Part shown: positions 21,077 through 33,275 of the stretch, one piece after another
Layout of the letters: each line of letters starts with the position of its first letter
Numbering within the stretch: the stretch's first letter is position 1
Assembly: GCF_008831085.1 (NCBI RefSeq)
Contig: NZ_WBJY01000001.1
Coordinates: 248,001-312,000, forward strand
Direction: 5' to 3'
Length of the DNA stretch: 64,000 nt
Source of the DNA: Pseudoclavibacter endophyticus
GTDB lineage: Bacteria; Actinomycetota; Actinomycetes; Actinomycetales; Microbacteriaceae
Notes under the pieces: generated by a model
Databases searched by the model: none
What the model was told of the DNA's origin: nothing
Seen by the model: only the letters and a program-made list of their open reading frames with translations
Position numbers and translations under genes: made by a program

Positions 21077-21742
21077 GTGAGAATCTCGCTGCGCCTCGTC
21101 ATCGTGCTCCTTCGCGCCTTCCTGCGTTCCCGCCGCGCAGCCGCAGACGTCTCGCGCATCCCGATGCGCGTCGGCCCCGGCGACCTCGACCTCAACGGCC
21201 ACATGAACAACGGCACGTACCTCACGCTGCAAGACCTCGGCCGCATCGACTATCTCGTTCGCACGGGCATCTTCGAGCGCACGCGAGCGCGCACGTGGAA
21301 CGCCGTCGTCGTCGCCCAGACCATCACGTATCGTGCCTCGCTGCATCTCGGTGAGCGTTTCCTCGTTGAGACCCGCTATCTCGGCTACGACGACTACGGC
21401 GTGTACATGGAGCAGCGCTTCACGGTCGACGGCCAGCTGCGATCGACGTCGTACGTGCGCGCCAGGTTCGTCGGGCCCGACGGTCCCATCGGCGCCGCCG
21501 AACTCGTCGAGGTGCTCCCCGAGATGAGCCGGCTGCCCGACCGGGTGCCGGCGTGGGTGCGCGAGTGGGCCGAACACGTCCGACTGCCGTCGCGCCGGAG
21601 CGACGCGCCGAGCGTGTGGGAGCGATTCATGGATGGCGGAGCCGCGGGAGCGGGTGGAACAGCGGGAGCGGGTGGAGACGCGGGGCTCATCGCCGATCCG
21701 GGCGACGCGCCCGAGCGCCGTGCGCGCGCCGGCAACGAGTAG
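21077..21742 (+). CDS. Hotdog-fold acyl-CoA thioesterase
   Basis: This 221-residue protein has a short basic/hydrophobic N-terminus and then a 4HBT-type hotdog domain (about residues 28-150). The segment GDLDLNGHMNNGTYLTLQDLGR carries the conserved Asn/His/Asn pattern of the TesC/Them6-like branch. It should hydrolyse an acyl-CoA. Menaquinone synthesis needs a DHNA-CoA hydrolase between MenB and MenA, and this gene sits 123 bp after menA, so it is a candidate for that step; the family is broad and this is inference. The C-terminal 40 residues are Gly/Ala-rich. Confidence 0.85.
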   Translation: MRISLRLVIVLLRAFLRSRRAAADVSRIPMRVGPGDLDLNGHMNNGTYLTLQDLGRIDYLVRTGIFERTRARTWNAVVVAQTITYRASLHLGERFLVETRYLGYDDYGVYMEQRFTVDGQLRSTSYVRARFVGPDGPIGAAELVEVLPEMSRLPDRVPAWVREWAEHVRLPSRRSDAPSVWERFMDGGAAGAGGTAGAGGDAGLIADPGDAPERRARAGNE

Positions 21743-21751: not shown

Positions 21752-22792
21752 ATGCCTCCGCAGCCGAGCCCCGTGCCGCGCTCGCGGGGCAGTCGCCATT
21801 CGCGCCGCATCGCCGGCGAGCTCGCCCGCGCGACGTCGAACGCGCCGCAGGCGGAGCCGTCCCCACGGGCCGAGACGGTCTACCGCCCGCGCGCGCCGAT
21901 CGACGTCGCGCGCACCCTCTCGCCCCTCGAGCGGGGTCACAGCGATCCGACCTTGACCGTCGATCGTGTGACCGGCGACCGCTGGCTCGCGGTGCGCAAC
22001 GACCAGGGCGACGCGACCCTGTGCATCCGGCCCGTCACCGAGGGCGCTCGCATCGTGGCGTTCGGCCGCGGTTCGGACCGGGCGATCGAACTCGCCCCGG
22101 AGCTGCTGGGCCGCGGCGATGACTGGAGCGGCCTCGACCTGCGCCGCGTGCCGTGGCTGGCGGAGGTTCGGCGGCGGCACCCCGGGCTGCGGCTGTGCCG
22201 CACGAACGCGGTGTTTCCCGCCATCGCGCAGGCCATCATCGAGCAGCGGGTGACCGGTACCGAGGCGCACGGGGCGTGGGCGTGGCTGCACCGGCGCTAT
22301 GCCGACCGCGCGCCGGGGCCGACGAACCTCGTGCCGCGGGGGCTGTTGCTGCCGCTGACGCCTCGGCAGTGGCTCGGCATTCCGTCGTGGGACTGGCACC
22401 GGGCCGGTGTCGACCATGCCCGCTCGACCGCGCTGCTTCGGGCTGCCGCCGTCGCCGACGGTCTGGAGCGCACGCTCCGCCTCGGCCGCGGCAGCGACGA
22501 GATCACCGCCAGGCTGCGCAGTGTGCCCGGTGTCGGCGTGTGGACGGCCGCCGAGACGACACAGCGATCCCATGGCGACCCCGACGCCCCCAGCTTCGGC
22601 GACTTCCACGTTGCGCACTGGGTCGGCTACGCGCTCAGGGGCGAGCGCACCGATGACGTGGGCATGCGAGATTTGCTCGAGCCGTGGCGAGGCCACCGGC
22701 AGCGGGTCGTGCGCCTGATCGCCCTCTCGGACCGCCGCCGCGAGCCGCGGCGCGCCCCACGGCTCGAACCCGCCGATCACCGCAGGAGGTAG
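21752..22792 (+). CDS. AlkA-like DNA-3-methyladenine glycosylase
   Basis: This 346-residue protein has a helix-hairpin-helix/GPD glycosylase core in its C-terminal half. The hairpin is LRSVPGVGVWTAAET near residue 255 and the catalytic aspartate is expected in PSFGDFHVAHWVG near residue 285. Family members remove alkylated purines in base excision repair. The N-terminal 150 residues are less conserved, as in actinobacterial AlkA-like enzymes. No iron-sulfur cysteine cluster is seen, which argues against endonuclease III. Confidence 0.85.
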   Translation: MPPQPSPVPRSRGSRHSRRIAGELARATSNAPQAEPSPRAETVYRPRAPIDVARTLSPLERGHSDPTLTVDRVTGDRWLAVRNDQGDATLCIRPVTEGARIVAFGRGSDRAIELAPELLGRGDDWSGLDLRRVPWLAEVRRRHPGLRLCRTNAVFPAIAQAIIEQRVTGTEAHGAWAWLHRRYADRAPGPTNLVPRGLLLPLTPRQWLGIPSWDWHRAGVDHARSTALLRAAAVADGLERTLRLGRGSDEITARLRSVPGVGVWTAAETTQRSHGDPDAPSFGDFHVAHWVGYALRGERTDDVGMRDLLEPWRGHRQRVVRLIALSDRRREPRRAPRLEPADHRRR

Positions 22793-22922
22793 GCGGGCAT
22801 TCGCGTGCGTGCGGCCGGTGTCCGCGAGACCGTCTCGTCGCGCGCATCCGCGTTGCTCCAGCGCCTACTGGTCACGGACGCGCGGCCCGACACGCCCGTG
22901 TGCGGGCTTCGCATCCGTTTGA

Positions 22923-22928
22923 CACAAT
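22923..22928 (+). promoter_or_regulatory. Leaderless-type -10 of the PfkB kinase gene
   Basis: CACAAT lies 7 nt before the GTG at 22936. No ribosome site is present. Confidence 0.4.
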
Positions 22929-22935
22929 TCCCCGC

Positions 22936-23943
22936 GTGCCTCCCCTGAGCTCGCCGCAGGCGATTCCGAACGTGACGGCCCCTGTCGCGGTGATCGGTGA
23001 CGTCTACATCGACGAGGTCTTCGAAGGCGACGATCGACGGGGTGCGAGCACCGAGCACCTGGGGGGTTCGGGCCTCGCCGTCGCCACCGACCTCGCGTTG
23101 CTCGGCGTCGAGTGCATGCTCATCGCGTCGGTCGGAGACGATGCCGCTGGGCGCCGCGTGCGGGCGCACCTTGACGAGCACGGCATCCAATTCCTGCCGA
23201 CGGTCGGCAGCCACCCGACAGGTCACGTGCGCAGCGTGCACGTCCAGGGGCGCACGCACTCCCGATACGACGAGTCGACACGGCTTCGGCGCGTCGACTT
23301 CGACGACGCCCAGCTCGCCGCGATCGGTGACGCCCCCTACGTCGCGGTCGCGGGCTTCGCGTTCGACGATAAGAAGCAGCAGCGCAAGCTGCTCGCGGCA
23401 GTGCGCCAGCCGCAGAACCGTCTCGTGCTCGACCCGAACCCGCGCGAGGGTCTCTTCATCGACCAGGGGCGGTTTCGCCGGCACTTCGAGCGGCATGCGT
23501 CGAGCGCACTGCTCGTGCACCTCGGGTCAGGCGACGCCGAGCTGATCTTCCGGTCGCCCGTCGACGAGGTCACGAGCGATCTGCTCGACCTCGGTGCTGG
23601 GCACGTTTTGGCGACCGAGGGGCGCAATGGCAGCCGCTGGGTCAACAGGGCGGGCCTCGACGTGTCGGCGCCCATCGCGTACTTCGATGGCCCCGTCGTC
23701 GACACGCTCGGCGCGGGCGACGCGGTGCTCGCGGTCGCGATCGCCGCCCTCGTGCGCGAGGGCGTGCCGAGGCGGGAGCTCGACGCGCGTGCCATCCTGC
23801 ACCGGGCGATGGCACTCGCGGGCGCGACGATCCGTAACCGCGGCCCGCACCTGCAGGACGCCGACGAGGTGCCCATCTCAGCCAAACGGACGTCGAACGC
23901 GTTCCGGGTGCTCGAAGAACCGCGTCACCGCCTCGTTCGGTAG
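22936..23943 (+). CDS. PfkB family carbohydrate kinase
   Basis: This 335-residue protein has the ribokinase-family layout: an N-terminal substrate motif (HLGGSGLAVATDLALLG near residue 40) and the C-terminal ATP/catalytic motif DTLGAGDAVLAVAIAAL near residue 258, whose aspartate is the base. The substrate is unclear; sequence alone does not separate ribokinase, fructokinase or adenosine kinase types. The GTG start follows from the -10 just upstream. Confidence 0.88.
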   Translation: MPPLSSPQAIPNVTAPVAVIGDVYIDEVFEGDDRRGASTEHLGGSGLAVATDLALLGVECMLIASVGDDAAGRRVRAHLDEHGIQFLPTVGSHPTGHVRSVHVQGRTHSRYDESTRLRRVDFDDAQLAAIGDAPYVAVAGFAFDDKKQQRKLLAAVRQPQNRLVLDPNPREGLFIDQGRFRRHFERHASSALLVHLGSGDAELIFRSPVDEVTSDLLDLGAGHVLATEGRNGSRWVNRAGLDVSAPIAYFDGPVVDTLGAGDAVLAVAIAALVREGVPRRELDARAILHRAMALAGATIRNRGPHLQDADEVPISAKRTSNAFRVLEEPRHRLVR

Positions 23944-23991: not shown

Positions 23992-26900
23992 ATGTGTCCT
24001 GCGCGCGAGAATGACGGCGACGCCCGCGACGCCGCCGACCCGGGACGGGAGCCGGCACGTCGCGACGTGCCCGCCGATGCCGGGGGGACGACGGGCGGAT
24101 TCTCACGGCGTGACTTCGAGGTGATCGACACCCGCCGGGTGGAGCGGGCCGACCTCGTGCGCGACGTGCTCCGCCGCCGGCGCGACGCGGTCCGCGCCGG
24201 CGCCGACGAGTCCGGCGAGGTGCGCGACGCGGGCGTGGAGTCGAGCGGTGGGGATGCTCGGGGCGATGCCGTCACGTCGGCGGCGGGCGGCGCCGCAGCG
24301 GGCGACGACGACACCATCGCTCTCGCCCGCGACGCGAAAGGCCGTGTCGAGGCGGCGTCGGCGGTGGTCGCGAGCCAGCCGGAACGCGACAGCGCCGGCG
24401 ACGCTCCGGATGAGCCGGCACCGCGACGCGGGGCAGTCCGCGTCACCCTGACCGACGCCGTGCCCACGTTCGACGACACCGTCCGACTGTCGCGCGACCC
24501 GTTCATGAGAAACCGTTCCGACCGCCTCGAGCCGGGTGCTCCGCGAACGCGCCTGCAACAGACGCCGCCAGCGGCCGCCGGAGCCCCGGGTGCGCCGAGT
24601 TCCGGTGGCCCTGGCCCGCACCGACGGCGGCCGCCAAGACCGAACGCCACCCCCTCGGACGCGTCGGGGGCTGCGCTGGCGATGCTGCGCGGCTGGCGCG
24701 CCGAGGCCGAGTCGCGCGCCGCGACGGTCGCGGAAGCCCAGCTGAAGGCCCGGACCGAGCGAGGCCGCGACCGGCTCGATCCCACGTCGGAGCTGCGGCG
24801 GGCGGTCGAGGGGGAGGGCGGGCGCGAGTTCCTTCGCGACCTGCTCGACAACGTCATCCGCCCCGATGATCGCATCGTCGCCGGGAACGGCCTCGGCGAT
24901 CTCGCGGACCGCATCCCGACCACCATCTCGGTGCAGGCGCGCCGGGCGTTCCGGGTCGGCGTGTTCGCGGGGCCAGGGGTGCCGTGGCTCGCCGTGCCGG
25001 CGCTGCGACGCACGGCGCGCGCGTTCTTCGGCGCCGAGGTGGTCTCCGACTCGTCCGAGGAGCGCGGAGGGTCGGCGGCGCACGCGCACGAGGCCGGTGC
25101 GACGCCCCGCGCGACGCCGCTCGGCGATCCCATCGTGGGCCGCGCGCGTGCGGCCGAGCGACTGCGTCGCCTCGGCGAACTCGTCGACGACCCGGCCTTT
25201 CCCGAGGTCGAGTTCACCATGAGCGATCTCGAGCCGAACCCGAACCTCTGGAACCTCGATGGCGAGGTGGAGCGCATCGCGACGGCCCTCGCGCCGCTGT
25301 GCGCAGCGGCGCTCGGATCGCCGTCGACGAAGGTCGGGCCGACGCGGCTCATGCTTCGCGCGACCTCATCGCGCGACCTCGAGCTCACGGTTCGGGTGTT
25401 CACCCGCCTGCTCGACGAGCCGGCGCTGCGCGACTTGCACGCGGGCATCGCCCTGCCCGCGCAGTTTCCCGAGACGACGAGCTTGCTGCGTCGTGTCGCC
25501 GGGCTCGCGCACATTCGCCGCGAAGACGGGGGAGCGCCGGTCACCGTCGCAATCACGCGCGCGGGCGACATCCAGCTCGAGCGCGTGGACGCCGTCATGA
25601 ACGGCTGGCGGCTCGCCACCTTCGCGGAAGCGCGCGACGTCGACGCGAGTGTGATCCGCCTGCTCGAGCAGGCACTCCACGCGGACAACGCCGAAGCCGT
25701 GCGCGTCGAGCTCGACGGCGACGTACTGCGAGATGTGGCGATGGCGATCGCGCTCGCGGAGGCCAGGGGCATGCCTCCCGTGCGCGTCGTCGTGCCCGTC
25801 GGTCGGGGAGACGAGGCGGTCGCTCGCCTCCGGGCCGCGGGCGCCGAGGTCATCCAGCGGCTGCCGATCGTGCCGGACGAGTCGATGCGTGCAGCGGTGC
25901 CCTACCTGCTGCGTCGCGTCGACCAAGAGGCCGACGCGGTAGCCCGGCAGGAGCTCAGCGAGGCGACCCTCGCGGGGCGCGACGCTCTGCATCCCGAAGA
26001 CGAGCGCCTGCTCGACGCCGTCAGTCGCATGTTCCAGCTGCCGGGCGGTGCCAACCGGCAGCAGGAGCGCGTGCACGCCGACGACGCCGCGACGGTCACC
26101 GCGAGCATCGGGCTCGAGCTCTTCCCCGAGGGAGTGCTCGGCGATGAGCTTGGGGTCGACAACGCCGAAACGCAGGCGATCCCCGCGGGGCGGGCGGCCG
26201 TGGCGCCGCAGGATGCCCGGGCCGCCATGCGCGCCCGCATCGAATCGCGGGGCGGTACCGACGACATCGCCGATGACGGCACCGCCGGCGACGACATCGC
26301 CAATGATGGCACCGCCGGCGACGACACGGTTGGCGATGACACGGTTGGTGACGACACGGTTGGCGACGACATCGGCGCCGACGAGCCGGCCCCGTCCGCG
26401 CCGCCGAACCGGCCCCCCGTGACCGAGTCCGTGATTCCCGAGCTCGAGCTCGAGCTCGAGCTCGAGGCCGATGTCGTCGTTCCGCCGGGTGCCAACGAGC
26501 GCCAGAAGCGCGCGGCACCGAGCGCCACCGAGCAGTTCGGGCCCCTGTCGACCGCGAACCCGGCCGACACGGGCCCGAGCGCCCGCCTCACAGAGATCGT
26601 GCTCGGCCTTCGTCGCGGTCGCTACCTGCGGAATACCTTCCGCAACGCGCCGGACACCGATCCATCGATTCCCGTCAATCGCGAGTGGGCCGCGCGCATC
26701 CAGCGACGCGTCGTTCGGGGCCAGCTGGGCGAGGCCGAGGCGGCCGAGGCCCGCATCACGGGGCCGGAGCAGGTCGAGGCGCTCCTGCAGCGTGCCGTCG
26801 AGGCGGCGCCGGGGTGGAATACCCGACCCGGCTGGGAGCGCGCCGCCCACCTCGAGCGTGCCGCGAAGGCGGTCGAGGCGAACCGGGCCCGGCTGGTCGA

Positions 26901-28728
26901 GGTCGCCGTCAGCGAGTTCGGGGTACCGCTCGTCGACGCGGATGCCGACGTGAGCCGCACCGTCGACGTCGCCAATCATGCTGCCTACCTGGCACGGCAG
27001 CTCGACCGCATGCAGGGCGCCGCGTTCCACCCCGTCGGCGTCACGGTGGTGCTGCCGCCGTCGTCGCCGCCCGTCACCGGATCGGCCGGCGGCGCGCTCA
27101 CGGCGCTTGCGGCGGGATCGGCCGTCATCCTCAAGGCGTCACCCAAGACCCGGCGCACGGCAGGCGTGCTCGCGGGGGTGCTCTGGGCGGCCGAGCTGCC
27201 CCGTGATCTCGTGCAGCTCGCGGTCATCGACGAGGCCCGGCTCGCGGAGGAGCAGCTCGCGCGAACGCTCGTCACCGACGACCGCGTCGGTCGCGTGCTG
27301 CTCACGGGCACGCTCGAGTCGGCCCGCACGATGCTCGGCTGGCGGCCCGATCTGCCGCTCATCGCGGGCACGTCGGGAAAGAACTCCATCATCGTGACAC
27401 CGGCCGCCGACCTTGATCAGGCCGCCGTCGACGTTGCGCGAAGCGCGTTCGCTTCGACCGGGCAGCGCACCGGGCACGCCGGCAACGTGATCCTCGTGGG
27501 ATCGGTCACCCGCTCCCGCCGCTTCCTGCAGCAGCTCGCCGACGCCGTCACGTCGATCCCCGTCGGCTACCCCTCCGATGCGGGCGCGGTCGCGGGTCCC
27601 CTCGTGCATCCCGCCGACGCGCAGTTGCGCTTCGCGCTCACCCATCTCGGCGAGGGCGAACGGTGGCTCGTCGAGCCGCGTCAGCTCGACGACACGGGCA
27701 GGCTGTGGACGCCCGGCATTCGGCTCGGCGTGCAGCCCGGCAGCTACGCGCACGTGACCGAGTTCTTCGGCCCCGTGCTCGGCGTCATGCACGCGCGCAC
27801 GTTCGGCGAGGCTATTGCCATGCAGAACGCGACGCAGTACGGGCTCGCGGCGGGGCTCCAGTCGCACGACCGCGCAGAGATCGGGCGATGGCTGCAGGAG
27901 GTCCAGGCGGGCAATCTCTACGTCAACCGCGACACCCTCGGGGCGACCGTGCAGCGGCAGCCGCTCGGCGGGTGGCGCCGCAGCGCCGTCGGCACGCTGC
28001 AGAAGTCGGGCGGCCCCAACGCGATCATGCCGCTCGGTGAATGGCGCATCGACCCGGGACAGCCATCGCCGACACTGCACTTGCGCGGCATGGACCCGAA
28101 GGCGGTCCGCCTCATCGAGGCGGCCCAGCCCGCGCTCGACTACGAGGCCTTCGACCGCGTGCGCCGCACCGCACTGAGCACCCAGATCGCCTGGAACGAG
28201 GAGTTCGGCGAGGTGAGCGACGTTACATCCCTCACGTTCGAACGCAACCTCTTCCGCTACCTGCCGGCCGCGGTCACGGTCAGGCTCGCCGAAGGCGCCC
28301 CGTTCGACGAGCTCGTGCGGGCGCTCGTGGTCGCGCGCATCGTCCGGGCCGTGCCGGACGTCTCGACAGCGCAGCGCTTGCCGGATGCCGTGGTCGCCGT
28401 GCTCGACGACCTCCAGTTCCCCGTCCGCGTCGAGAGCGATGCCGCGTTCCTCGAGCGGCTCCGCATGAAGCAGCTCGATTCGCTGCGCATCCGTCTCATC
28501 GGCGGCTCCAGGCGCGAGGTCGCGCTCGCGCTCGGTGGCGACCCCGATGTGGCCGTGTGGAGCGACCCCGTCACGTTCGCGGGCCGGGTGGAGGCGCTGC
28601 CGTTCCTCCGGGAGCAGTCGATCTCGATCACGGCGCACCGCAACGGCCGGCCCGATCCCCGCGTCACATCGCTCTTCGCGCACGAGAAGCTCCTCGACCC
28701 GGACAAGCCCTTCGGCGACCTCGCCTGA
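23992..28728 (+). CDS. PutA-like protein with degenerate proline dehydrogenase and ALDH domains
   Basis: This 1578-residue protein has the layout of actinobacterial PutA (proline dehydrogenase, then P5C dehydrogenase) but is unusually long. Residues 1-230 are low-complexity and charged; about 260-680 resemble the dehydrogenase barrel; about 740-860 are a spacer with Asp/Gly/Thr repeats and a Glu-Leu run; about 890-1380 form an ALDH domain; a 200-residue tail follows. Catalytic positions look lost: S1025 where the ALDH Asn is expected (PPSSPP for PPWNFP), G1126 for the base Glu (AGTSGKN for AETSGKN) and T1160 for the nucleophile Cys (GQRTG for GQKCS), the last two at the normal 34-residue spacing. 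In the barrel, the usual RLVKGA and GHN motifs are also altered (AITRAG, ELDGD). I infer a pseudoenzyme, perhaps structural or regulatory. The frame is intact and codon bias normal, so it is not simple decay. Confidence 0.85.
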   Translation: MCPARENDGDARDAADPGREPARRDVPADAGGTTGGFSRRDFEVIDTRRVERADLVRDVLRRRRDAVRAGADESGEVRDAGVESSGGDARGDAVTSAAGGAAAGDDDTIALARDAKGRVEAASAVVASQPERDSAGDAPDEPAPRRGAVRVTLTDAVPTFDDTVRLSRDPFMRNRSDRLEPGAPRTRLQQTPPAAAGAPGAPSSGGPGPHRRRPPRPNATPSDASGAALAMLRGWRAEAESRAATVAEAQLKARTERGRDRLDPTSELRRAVEGEGGREFLRDLLDNVIRPDDRIVAGNGLGDLADRIPTTISVQARRAFRVGVFAGPGVPWLAVPALRRTARAFFGAEVVSDSSEERGGSAAHAHEAGATPRATPLGDPIVGRARAAERLRRLGELVDDPAFPEVEFTMSDLEPNPNLWNLDGEVERIATALAPLCAAALGSPSTKVGPTRLMLRATSSRDLELTVRVFTRLLDEPALRDLHAGIALPAQFPETTSLLRRVAGLAHIRREDGGAPVTVAITRAGDIQLERVDAVMNGWRLATFAEARDVDASVIRLLEQALHADNAEAVRVELDGDVLRDVAMAIALAEARGMPPVRVVVPVGRGDEAVARLRAAGAEVIQRLPIVPDESMRAAVPYLLRRVDQEADAVARQELSEATLAGRDALHPEDERLLDAVSRMFQLPGGANRQQERVHADDAATVTASIGLELFPEGVLGDELGVDNAETQAIPAGRAAVAPQDARAAMRARIESRGGTDDIADDGTAGDDIANDGTAGDDTVGDDTVGDDTVGDDIGADEPAPSAPPNRPPVTESVIPELELELELEADVVVPPGANERQKRAAPSATEQFGPLSTANPADTGPSARLTEIVLGLRRGRYLRNTFRNAPDTDPSIPVNREWAARIQRRVVRGQLGEAEAAEARITGPEQVEALLQRAVEAAPGWNTRPGWERAAHLERAAKAVEANRARLVEVAVSEFGVPLVDADADVSRTVDVANHAAYLARQLDRMQGAAFHPVGVTVVLPPSSPPVTGSAGGALTALAAGSAVILKASPKTRRTAGVLAGVLWAAELPRDLVQLAVIDEARLAEEQLARTLVTDDRVGRVLLTGTLESARTMLGWRPDLPLIAGTSGKNSIIVTPAADLDQAAVDVARSAFASTGQRTGHAGNVILVGSVTRSRRFLQQLADAVTSIPVGYPSDAGAVAGPLVHPADAQLRFALTHLGEGERWLVEPRQLDDTGRLWTPGIRLGVQPGSYAHVTEFFGPVLGVMHARTFGEAIAMQNATQYGLAAGLQSHDRAEIGRWLQEVQAGNLYVNRDTLGATVQRQPLGGWRRSAVGTLQKSGGPNAIMPLGEWRIDPGQPSPTLHLRGMDPKAVRLIEAAQPALDYEAFDRVRRTALSTQIAWNEEFGEVSDVTSLTFERNLFRYLPAAVTVRLAEGAPFDELVRALVVARIVRAVPDVSTAQRLPDAVVAVLDDLQFPVRVESDAAFLERLRMKQLDSLRIRLIGGSRREVALALGGDPDVAVWSDPVTFAGRVEALPFLREQSISITAHRNGRPDPRVTSLFAHEKLLDPDKPFGDLA
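26260..26364 (+). repeat. In-frame tandem repeats in the PutA-like spacer
   Basis: Two 30-bp units (26260-26289, 26290-26319) are followed by three 15-bp units encoding GDDTV-like peptides up to 26364. An imperfect GAGCTC run follows at 26440-26466, giving a Glu-Leu stretch. All keep the reading frame. Confidence 0.85.
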
Positions 28729-28795
28729 CCGGCTCGGCGTGCCTGACCGGCTCGGCGTGCCCGACCGGCTCGGCGTGCCTGACCGGCTCGGCGTG
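28724..28795 (+). repeat. Four 18-bp tandem repeats across the PutA-like stop codon
   Basis: Units at 28724-28741, 28742-28759, 28760-28777 and 28778-28795 differ by a single C/T, with a partial fifth copy after. The first contains the stop codon. They could form a structured transcript end; no perfect hairpin is seen. Confidence 0.85.
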
Positions 28796-28820
28796 CCCGA
28801 CCGTGCAGCCGGGTCCCCGT

Positions 28821-28832: not shown

Positions 28833-30206
28833 ATGAGTGCTGACGTCGTCGCGCGCCTCGAGCGCAAGCTGCCCGGCCGGGTCGTCACCGACCCCGAGGC
28901 CCTCGAACCGCTTCGGCGAGACCGATCGGGGGCCGTGGCCCCCGGGCGCCCCCTCGCGGTCGTATTCGCGGAGTCGGTTGGCGACGTGCAGGCCGTGTGC
29001 CGGACCGCCAACGAGACGGGCACGCCGCTCGTCACGCGCGGCGCCGGGTCAGGGCTCGCCGGCGGTGCGATCGCCGGGGACGGCGAACTCGTGCTGTCGA
29101 CGGAACGCATGACGCGCATCCTCGAGATCTCGATTCCGAACCAGCTCGCCGTCGTCGAGCCCGGTCTCTTTAACGGTGACCTCAACCGCCAGCTCGCGGC
29201 GCACGGACTCTGGTGGCCGCCGGACCCGGCGTCGAAGGAGTTCTCCACGGTCGGCGGCAACATCGCGATGAACGCCGGCGGCCTGCTCTGCGCCAAGTAC
29301 GGCGTCACTCGCGAATCGGTGCTCGCCCTGAAGGTCGTGCTCGCCGACGGATCGCTGCTCGAGGTCGGTCACCGCACGGTCAAGGGCGTGACGGGCTACG
29401 ACCTGTGCGCGCTCATGATCGGCTCGGAGGGCACGCTCGGCGTCATCGTCGAGGCCACGCTCAAGGTGCGGCCGGCGGTGACGGGCACGGTTCCCACGAT
29501 CGGCGCCTACTTCGATTCGATTCCGGATGCCGCGGCCGCGTCGGCGGCGGTGACGGCGGCGGGCCTGCGCCCGGCCATCATGGAGCTCCTCGACACGTAC
29601 ATGCTGCAGACCGTGGGCGATTACCACGGAATCGACCTGATCTCCGCCGGCGCGGCGTACCTGCTGATCCAGACCGACGGCCCAGGCGCGCTCGATGAGG
29701 CCGAGCGCATCCTGGCGGAGGTCACCAGGGTCGGTGGCCGCGCCGAGCTGACGACCGATCCCGAAACCGCGGCTTCGCTCGTCGACGTGCGTCGCTCGGG
29801 GTTCATCGCGCTCGAGGCGACGGGCAGGGCGATGCTCGTGGAAGACGTGGCCGTGCCGCGCGATCGCATGCCAGACATGTACGCCCGCATCGCCGAGATC
29901 TCGGCGAAGTACGGTGTCGACATTCCGGCCCCGTCGCATGCGGGCGACGGCAACCTGCATCCCTCGTTCCTGTTCGATGGGTCGTCGTCCGAGGTGCCCG
30001 AGTACGTGTGGCAGGCGGCGGAGGAACTCTTCACGGCGGCGCTCGAACTCGGCGGCACGCTGTCGGGGGAGCACGGCATCGGCACGCTCAAGCGGCGCTT
30101 CCTTGGCGCAGAGCTCGGGGCCGAGCAGTACGAGTTGCAGCGGCGCATCAAGCAGGTGTTCGACCCGAAGGGCATTCTCAACCCCGGGAAGGTGTTCGCG
30201 GCCTGA
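28833..30206 (+). CDS. FAD-linked oxidase of the glycolate/D-lactate oxidase type (GlcD-like)
   Basis: This 457-residue protein has an N-terminal PCMH-type FAD domain (VTRGAGSGLAGGAI near residue 68 and STVGGNIAMNAGG near residue 137) and the vanillyl-alcohol-oxidase-type C-terminal domain with HAGDGNLHPSFLFD and GEHGIGTLKRRFL. Such enzymes oxidise D-2-hydroxy acids (glycolate, D-lactate) and pass electrons to quinone or a partner subunit. No GlcE/GlcF partner genes are adjacent, so it probably works alone. The ATG is fixed by the -10 hexamer 6 nt upstream. Confidence 0.92.
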   Translation: MSADVVARLERKLPGRVVTDPEALEPLRRDRSGAVAPGRPLAVVFAESVGDVQAVCRTANETGTPLVTRGAGSGLAGGAIAGDGELVLSTERMTRILEISIPNQLAVVEPGLFNGDLNRQLAAHGLWWPPDPASKEFSTVGGNIAMNAGGLLCAKYGVTRESVLALKVVLADGSLLEVGHRTVKGVTGYDLCALMIGSEGTLGVIVEATLKVRPAVTGTVPTIGAYFDSIPDAAAASAAVTAAGLRPAIMELLDTYMLQTVGDYHGIDLISAGAAYLLIQTDGPGALDEAERILAEVTRVGGRAELTTDPETAASLVDVRRSGFIALEATGRAMLVEDVAVPRDRMPDMYARIAEISAKYGVDIPAPSHAGDGNLHPSFLFDGSSSEVPEYVWQAAEELFTAALELGGTLSGEHGIGTLKRRFLGAELGAEQYELQRRIKQVFDPKGILNPGKVFAA

Positions 30207-31974: not shown

Positions 31975-32085
31975 ATGACCGGACAGAGCCGGTCGATTGA
32001 GAGGTCTCCGTGTCGACGACGCTTCCGAGTACGCCAGCTTCGCCATCGCCCGCGTACGAGCCGTCCGCGGCCCAGCGGGCCGTGA
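31975..32085 (+). CDS. Possible Arg-rich leaderless short reading frame overlapping the aminotransferase start
   Basis: An ATG 6 nt after TAGACT opens a 36-residue frame with 12 arginines that runs past the GTG of the aminotransferase gene (32010) in another frame and stops at 32083-32085. If translated, it would couple to and perhaps sense arginine for an arginine/ornithine catabolic enzyme. Caution: frames shadowing Ala/Ser/Pro-rich GC-rich genes are often Arg-rich by chance, so only the promoter geometry is real support. Confidence 0.3.
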   Translation: MTGQSRSIERSPCRRRFRVRQLRHRPRTSRPRPSGP

Positions 32086-33275
32086 TCGACCGCGAGCTCG
32101 CCCACTCGCCGAAGAACTACGCGCCGCTCCCGCTCGTCATCGACCGCGGCGAGGGCGCGTGGGTGTGGGACGTTGACGGCAACCGCTACCTCGACTGCAT
32201 GGCGGCCTACTCCGCGGCGAACTTCGGTCACGCCAACGAGCGGTTCCTGGCGGCGGCGAAGGCGCAGCTCGAGCGCGTCACGATCACGAGCCGCGCGCTG
32301 CATGCGACGCCGCTCGGTCCCTTCCTCGAGGCGCTCGCGTCGCTGGCGGGCAAGGAGCTCGTGCTGCCCATGAACACGGGCGCCGAGGCGAACGAGACCG
32401 CCGTCAAGATCGCCCGCAAATGGGGATACACGGTCAAGGGTGTCGCGGAGGGCCGCGCGAAGGTCGTGGCCATGCGCAAGAACTTCCACGGTCGCACGAC
32501 GACGATGATCTCGATGAGCGACGACCCGCTCGCGCGCGAGAACTACGGCCCGTACACGCCGGGCTTCGAACTCGTCGACTTCGGCGACGTCGATCAGCTG
32601 CGGGCGGCGATCGACGACGACACGGTCGCCGTCATGCTCGAGCCCATACAGGGGGAGGCCGGCATCATCGTGCCGCCGGACGGCTACCTGCAGAAGGTGC
32701 GCGAGTTGACGCGCGAGCGCAACGTGCTGCTCGTCTGCGACGAGGTGCAGACGGGCCTCGGCCGCACCGGAGCGACGTTCCGGCACCAGGCGGAAGGAAT
32801 CGAGGCCGACCTCATCACGGTTGGCAAGTCGCTCGGCGCGGGCATCGTTCCCGTGTCCGCGGTCATCGGTGACAGCGACGTCATGGGCGTGCTCGCACCC
32901 GGAACGCACGGCTCGACCTTTGGGGGCAATCCGATGGCCGCCGCGATCGCGCTTGCGGTGTGCCAGGAGTTGGCGACCGGCGAGCCTCAGGAGCGAAGCC
33001 GCACGCTCGGCGAGCGCCTGCACGCCGGGCTCGCCCGCCGCGTCGGGTCGGGCGTGAGCGAGGTGCGCGGCATGGGCCTCTGGGCGGGCGTCGACATCGA
33101 CCCGGCCTACGGCTCCGCGAAAGACATTTGCCTCGGGCTTCTGGCCCGCGGCGTGCTGGCGAAGGACACGCAGGCGAGGACGATCCGGTTCGCGCCGCCC
33201 TTCGTCGTCGGCGCCGACGAGATCGACCTGCTGCTGCGGGAGTTCGGGGCGGTGCTCGACGCACGCCGCCCGTAG
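32010..33275 (+). CDS. rocD: Ornithine aminotransferase (class III)
   Basis: This 421-residue PLP enzyme converts ornithine and 2-oxoglutarate to glutamate semialdehyde and glutamate. Features include the N-terminal motif HSPKNYAPLPLVIDRGEG, MNTGAEANETAVK, the FHGRTTTMISMS segment, CDEVQTGLGRTG, and the PLP-binding lysine in TVGKSLGAGIVPVSA. The opening motif is more like RocD than ArgD. The GTG at 32010 has GAGAGG at 31999-32004. Its product, P5C, is the substrate of a normal PutA ALDH domain, which makes the degenerate PutA-like gene nearby notable. Confidence 0.92.
   Translation: MSTTLPSTPASPSPAYEPSAAQRAVIDRELAHSPKNYAPLPLVIDRGEGAWVWDVDGNRYLDCMAAYSAANFGHANERFLAAAKAQLERVTITSRALHATPLGPFLEALASLAGKELVLPMNTGAEANETAVKIARKWGYTVKGVAEGRAKVVAMRKNFHGRTTTMISMSDDPLARENYGPYTPGFELVDFGDVDQLRAAIDDDTVAVMLEPIQGEAGIIVPPDGYLQKVRELTRERNVLLVCDEVQTGLGRTGATFRHQAEGIEADLITVGKSLGAGIVPVSAVIGDSDVMGVLAPGTHGSTFGGNPMAAAIALAVCQELATGEPQERSRTLGERLHAGLARRVGSGVSEVRGMGLWAGVDIDPAYGSAKDICLGLLARGVLAKDTQARTIRFAPPFVVGADEIDLLLREFGAVLDARRP

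Follow-up and report, generated by a model that had tools for sequence, protein, structure and literature searches.

A PutA homologue without catalytic residues in either half: a very probable clade-wide pseudoenzyme of Pseudoclavibacter and Gulosibacter

Pseudoenzymes and non-catalytic domains with the aldehyde dehydrogenase (ALDH) fold are already known. ALDH16A1 of animals, which lacks the catalytic Cys of ALDHs, is a long-lived pseudoenzyme of this family and has no proline dehydrogenase (PRODH) half. Long PutA proteins carry a C-terminal ALDH-superfamily domain that is a non-catalytic, ALDH-derived fold, while the catalytic domains of these proteins stay active. Pseudoenzymes are usually thought to come from a spare duplicate, with the original enzyme still working. 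The solved structure 5ux5, the PutA of Corynebacterium freiburgense, is presumably a class 3B PutA.

The window, which means here the whole 64,000-nucleotide stretch of Pseudoclavibacter endophyticus DNA that was analysed, encodes a PutA homologue that is called pseudo-PutA below (Table 1). The initial annotation had described an intact frame of 1578 codons, the architecture of PutA and a normal codon bias, and all three descriptions hold. The frame runs from ATG to stop with no break; Pfam finds Pro_dh (residues 432–644, E = 1e-12) followed by Aldedh (residues 917–1343, E = 8e-71), so that a PRODH barrel and an ALDH domain share one chain as in catalytic PutA (the two parts were modelled apart); and the codon bias, checked through third-position GC alone, is 0.88, which lies inside the 0.85–0.94 of seven neighbouring genes. 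The closest solved protein by sequence is 5ux5 (E = 3e-138). The protein stays below the curated cut-off of the NCBIfam PutA and P5CDH equivalogs, with 181 bits for the best model against 747. The proposal of DNA binding found no support: the N-terminal ribbon-helix-helix domain of trifunctional PutA was not detected (two Pfam families; 25 of 40 NCBIfam matches listed), nor was any other DNA-binding domain in these searches except for the NCBIfam trifunctional PutA model itself, which matches at residues 922–1434 only. Tandem repeats of 15/30 bases at 26259–26384 encode an acidic linker of the GDDTV type, and the linkers of other members differ there. Another tandem array (28723–28803; 18-base unit, 4.5 copies, 95% matches) begins across the stop codon of the gene.

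Table 1. Features of the pseudo-putA locus, in positions of the window.
Feature	Position	Strand	Remarks
Thioesterase-like gene	21077–21742	+	Pfam
Gene without Pfam/NCBIfam match	21752–22792	+	Next after the thioesterase-like gene
Pseudo-PutA open reading frame	23992–28728	+	1578 aa, ATG to stop
Conserved N-terminal segment, ARRVERADLVR-type	24109–24189	+	Residues 40–66; candidate helix (a guess)
Low-conservation linker	24190–24663	+	Residues 67–224; conservation 0.00–0.21 per 25-residue block from residue 76
Proline-dehydrogenase-like part	24664–26154	+	Residues 225–721; canonical-invariant residues replaced along barrel strands; AF2 pLDDT 91.3
R373, canonical N	25108–25110	+	On predicted strand; 16/16 pseudo
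R456, canonical D	25357–25359	+	17/17 pseudo
P489, canonical Q	25456–25458	+	17/17 pseudo
R523, canonical K	25558–25560	+	16/17 pseudo
E573, canonical G	25708–25710	+	17/17 pseudo
R623, canonical Y	25858–25860	+	17/17 pseudo
R633, canonical D	25888–25890	+	16/16 pseudo
Interdomain linker, short repeats	26155–26583	+	Residues 722–864
ALDH-like domain and C-terminal domain	26584–28725	+	Residues 865–1578; AF2 pLDDT 87.2; Foldseek 5ux5
LTEIVLGLRRG motif	26587–26619	+	Residues 866–876; common to 19/25 Microbacteriaceae PutA rows
S1025, catalytic Asn position	27064–27066	+	Alignments
G1126, catalytic Glu position	27367–27369	+	Alignments
T1160, catalytic Cys position	27469–27471	+	Alignments
GlcD-like FAD oxidase gene	28833–30206	+	Pfam, NCBIfam; downstream of pseudo-putA
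rocD, ornithine aminotransferase	32010–33275	+	Over TIGR01885 cut-off

The alignment with 5ux5 is free of gaps around the ALDH catalytic sites and pairs S1025, G1126 and T1160 with N, E and C, as had been claimed from the sequence of the window. The claimed spacing of 34 residues between G1126 and T1160 is that of E732 and C766 in the intact PutA of the same genome. Catalytic residues at shifted positions were ruled out by these gap-free alignments and by the lack of Cys in the ALDH part; the only Cys residues in the whole protein are 2 and 437, therefore a shifted catalytic Cys is impossible. Among the 120 best database sequences (the alignment includes the window protein), the N/E/C columns are intact in 77, and E and C are absent from 43, of which 42 also lack N and one (P0022) retains it. 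The median length is 1462 aa for the 43 triad-less sequences and 1218 aa for the 77 intact ones. The triad is wholly missing in 17/17 pseudo-PutA rows of the set used for the tree and is NEC in the 57 others. Loss of further residues was counted in this 74-row alignment, with 16 pseudo rows (the incomplete locus L008 was excluded) set against the 57 other rows, and with columns called invariant at 96% or more in canonical PutA. On this basis, 12 of the 138 invariant columns of the ALDH domain are missing from every pseudo row, compared to none of the 16 of the C-terminal domain, where 13 are kept. Lys column 1048 and Glu column 1257, which presumably have a role in NAD binding or use, are retained in 13/17 and 7/17 pseudo rows, respectively. 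The family motif EFFGPVLG, which had been listed as kept, stands in part of the family and fails elsewhere, since E1257 occurs in 7/17 and G1260 in 8/17 pseudo rows.

The PRODH half has changed more than the ALDH half. Its motifs had been described as altered, and indeed 39 of its 118 canonical-invariant columns are lost in every one of the 16 pseudo rows. K, D, Y, Q and R at positions 523, 456, 460, 489 and 520 are each found in 57/57 canonical rows and are presumably involved in catalysis or flavin binding in PutA; the window protein has R, R, S, P and A at these positions. The replacements N373R, Y405E, S407E/D, D456R, Q489P, K523R, G573E, Y623R and D633R lie along the predicted barrel strands. 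Those at 373, 456, 489, 573, 623 and 633 are fixed among the pseudo rows, most of them on predicted strands, and the acidic ones at 405 and 407 are found in 15/16 (Glu) and 16/16 (Glu or Asp). Because several replacements are fixed, they are read here as the likely mark of a new constraint on the barrel and not of drift. Judged from its residues only, the window protein would have no enzymatic activity.

Both halves are nevertheless predicted to keep the folds of PutA. AlphaFold (AF2) models of residues 225–721 and 865–1578, made separately, have pLDDT values of 91.3 and 87.2. Their top Foldseek match is 5ux5 in each case (E = 2e-16 for the first; E = 2.7e-52, TM 0.79, rmsd 2.9 for the second), and a C-terminal domain follows the ALDH domain as in 5ux5, in the manner of class 3B. 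Selection, which had been suggested for the gene, was followed through omega (dN/dS) among four Pseudoclavibacter relatives, all pairs being of species other than that of the window. It was found that omega is far below 1, which speaks against neutral decay: two pairs gave 0.032 and 0.081 in the PRODH part, and 0.036 and 0.033 in the ALDH and C-terminal part. The value for the whole gene (0.105–0.142, six pairs) is higher than that for the whole catalytic PutA paralogue (0.055–0.073, three pairs from three of the four relatives), the fast portion being the N-terminal linker part (0.26–0.29 in the relatives). An enzyme homologue whose catalytic residues are gone and which is maintained by selection, here as measured in relatives, answers to the description of a pseudoenzyme, and the sequences make it very probable that the whole clade is one. 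The non-catalytic role put forward by the initial annotation is supported as probable, because the catalytic residues were lost yet the protein is under selection, and this role is probably a novel one.

The family is confined to a small part of the Microbacteriaceae in the genomes searched. The named genome collection yielded 17 loci. Sixteen of them belong to it, from Pseudoclavibacter, Gulosibacter and Zimmermannella as well as a MAG labelled 'Microbacteriaceae bacterium', and the last one is a remote match to ALDH from an Arthrobacter MAG. When 299 genomes of the bacterial family were searched, a match of more than 1300 bits was obtained in 12/12 genomes from Pseudoclavibacter (six) and Gulosibacter/Zimmermannella (six); the remaining 287 all stayed below this score, the best of them at 1157. 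Eleven of the 12 matches span most of the model, and the remaining one (G188) covers positions 684–1418 within a frame of 1558 aa. All 25 of the lower-scoring Microbacteriaceae matches that were read (18 + 7) have N/E/C. The copy of Gulosibacter sediminis (L019:9323–13802) is divided between two frames and contains an unresolved base, owing to a poor assembly or draft error or to decay; its first frame opens with a piece of an FAD monooxygenase-like gene. By eye, such a gene is located just upstream of pseudo-putA in two genomes (L087, L090), and P0088 has a PF01494 domain and an ALDH domain within one protein. In the databases, a number of members bear the name 'proline dehydrogenase family protein' or '1-pyrroline-5-carboxylate dehydrogenase', which calls for caution in annotation.

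A check for a second, intact putA in the genome of the window was positive (G000:C1:838039–841665, NEC triad), and an intact PutA is present in 10/12 genomes that have pseudo-PutA. The tree indicates that these catalytic copies are not close relatives of the pseudoenzyme. In a 74-row mixture tree, the 17 pseudo rows are monophyletic (SH-aLRT 100), with 1.4 changes per site along their stem, and are nested with 23 of the 25 Microbacteriaceae PutA rows (supports of 98 and 91), although the exact sister of the pseudo clade is not fixed by the tree. The 10 catalytic copies from the two genera lie outside this grouping: they make up two sets close to other families, and the other two Microbacteriaceae rows fall there as well. 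The working PutA of the genome (L003:8039–11668; 1209 aa, intact triad), which by eye adjoins putative glyA and folD genes, groups with one Gulosibacter copy, away from the other Gulosibacter copies. The catalytic copies are placed differently in an LG+G4 tree of 30 rows than in the mixture tree. Using 30 of the 74 rows, and with groups defined after the first tree had been seen, the AU test rejected pseudo and catalytic copies as a single clade (p-AU = 2e-8), and gave a p-AU of 0.006 for all Microbacteriaceae as a single clade. Tree and AU test thus rule out that pseudo-PutA arose by recent duplication of the PutA of its own genome. The second value makes an older duplication with subsequent losses less likely.

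The linker motif and the gene order point in the same direction. The motif LTxxVLGL is found in 17/17 pseudo rows and 19/25 Microbacteriaceae PutA rows, and in 0/10 catalytic copies of the two genera and 0/22 rows from other families. Within regions of about 20 kb, a homologue of the thioesterase gene is found near 5/11 pseudo, 9/20 canonical and 0/10 catalytic genes of the two genera; for the gene that follows it, the counts are 2/11, 9/20 and 0/10. The rocD gene, present in the window, occurs in 5/11 other pseudo regions, 6/20 canonical regions and 0/10 regions of the catalytic copies. The 20 canonical regions were chosen from high-scoring matches and not at random, and each shared neighbour is present in less than half of them. 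A gap of 48 bases separates the pseudo-putA start from the end of an upstream PfkB-type sugar kinase gene (22684–23943), a homologue of which is found near 5/11 other pseudo genes. As tree, linker motif and gene order agree, the dead gene has the appearance of a Microbacteriaceae PutA that was inherited and stayed in its original place, and the working copy that of a replacement, the lineage of which was probably acquired from outside the family.

The explanation favoured here starts from the PutA inherited by the ancestor of Pseudoclavibacter and Gulosibacter, in which the catalytic residues of both halves would have disappeared on a single long branch. The dead protein would then have been retained as a folded, non-catalytic protein, with proline oxidation left to PutA copies that belong to a different lineage and sit at different loci. 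The dead barrel, the ALDH-like domain and the C-terminal domain would provide a platform in which the old flavin cavity could be filled by the fixed set of Arg and Glu, an idea that rests on strand positions, and the N-terminal segment, on its long flexible linker, would recruit a putative partner. The main positive clue for such a scaffold or adaptor is the conservation of this segment: ARRVERADLVR and its variants are full in 14/17 pseudo rows, shortened (ERADLVRGVLARR) in two, and outside the range of one incomplete row that begins too late to show it, and the segment was not found in any of the 57 non-pseudo rows. The linker that follows is variable in length and poorly conserved among pseudo members. 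In four Pseudoclavibacter relatives (L081, L083, L084, L018), this linker contains a repeated peptide, ETVAVDDSIVxALRAEGRT, which by eye looks like a candidate repeated binding or phosphorylation motif. The scaffold or adaptor mechanism was reached by elimination and is put forward tentatively, at rather less than an even chance. The explanation as a whole, in which an inherited PutA turned into a pseudoenzyme and was kept as a scaffold or adaptor, is considered evenly balanced between right and wrong. A bolder version is possible but doubtful: that the bifunctional enzyme, once displaced by other copies, was rebuilt as a clade-defining hub, with a new charged site in the barrel and an N-terminal segment that recruits a putative partner for a task unrelated to proline, and was kept even in 2-Mb genomes.

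The chief rival to the scaffold or adaptor is a new ligand site in the barrel. The remodelled barrel would then have a new ligand-binding or catalytic function, as a sensor or a new enzyme, and the Arg residues at the old flavin/proline site may bind an anionic molecule. The strong constraint on the barrel, as seen from omega, agrees with this proposal, as do five Arg that are fixed or nearly so at canonical-invariant positions (R373, R456, R523, R623 and R633). However, acidic residues are conserved on other barrel strands (E405, E/D407 and E573, the last in 17/17), and therefore the Arg and Glu charges may merely pair and fill the cavity. A new function of this type is considered unlikely. 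A slowly decaying pseudogene, or an artefact of annotation or alignment, is scarcely credible: the split Gulosibacter sediminis copy and one stop counted inside the G020 match (open frame of 1382 aa) could be taken as signs of it, but the low omega of 0.03–0.08 in the folded parts, the high-confidence fold predictions and the presence of pseudo-PutA in 12/12 genomes of the two genera all argue to the contrary.

The remaining proposals concern metabolic partners. The initial annotation had suggested a regulator of proline/ornithine use, which could act beside rocD as a P5C-binding switch or else serve the working PutA as a decoy subunit. The proximity of rocD in the window and in the other pseudo regions, and the working PutA in most of the genomes, would fit this suggestion. 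However, rocD is also near canonical putA and may therefore be an inherited neighbour, and the working PutA comes from another lineage. Furthermore, searches of the two small genomes G136 and G211 found pseudo-PutA but neither an intact PutA nor a separate proline dehydrogenase; with the Pro_dh profile, the pseudo copy is the sole match in G136 (27 bits), and G211, which is a single contig and 99% complete, gives no match. RocD exceeds the curated cut-off in 6/12 genomes, G136 and G211 not among them, and other class-III aminotransferases match below the cut-off. That these two genomes keep the protein without the detected pathway argues against a role tied to proline or ornithine use, and such a regulator is regarded as improbable. 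A partnership with the downstream GlcD-like FAD oxidase is very improbable, even though glcD lies downstream on the same strand in 9/12 genomes (window included) and, at 50% identity or more, was found in 0/20 regions around canonical putA. In G161 and G211, which both have pseudo-PutA, GlcD gives no match at 1e-80, and glcD is present in 10/10 other genomes of the family searched, all of which are without a match at the level of pseudo-PutA. Of intact PutA, RocD, GlcD and pseudo-PutA, only the last is found in 12/12 genomes, which rules out each of the other three as an obligate partner.

Compared with the described systems, 5ux5 is the best match of the window protein in both sequence and fold, and the domain order, the ALDH-like domain and the C-terminal domain are alike. 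The differences are that 5ux5 has N, E, C and the Asp at the position of R456, none of which is found in the window protein, and that the N-terminal arm and the long linker are extra in the latter. The PutAs of other Microbacteriaceae are nearest in the tree and have the linker motif and some neighbours in common, but their triad is intact in 25/25 rows read. Relative to canonical PutA rows in general, the 39 PRODH and 12 ALDH invariant columns are gone from all 16 pseudo rows and, in contrast to the long PutAs, the window protein has lost the catalytic residues of both catalytic domains. A limited literature search joining PutA, proline dehydrogenase and pseudoenzyme found no paper. As far as this search allows, a PutA that is dead in both halves throughout a clade, at an apparently inherited locus and with other copies doing the chemistry, is new. 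Throughout the 16–17 copies that were counted, both halves of a bifunctional enzyme are affected, and two genomes without a detected pathway still keep the protein. Pseudo-PutA points the opposite way from the usual view of pseudoenzymes: the inherited enzyme lost its catalytic residues yet was kept, and it is the copy of another lineage that works.
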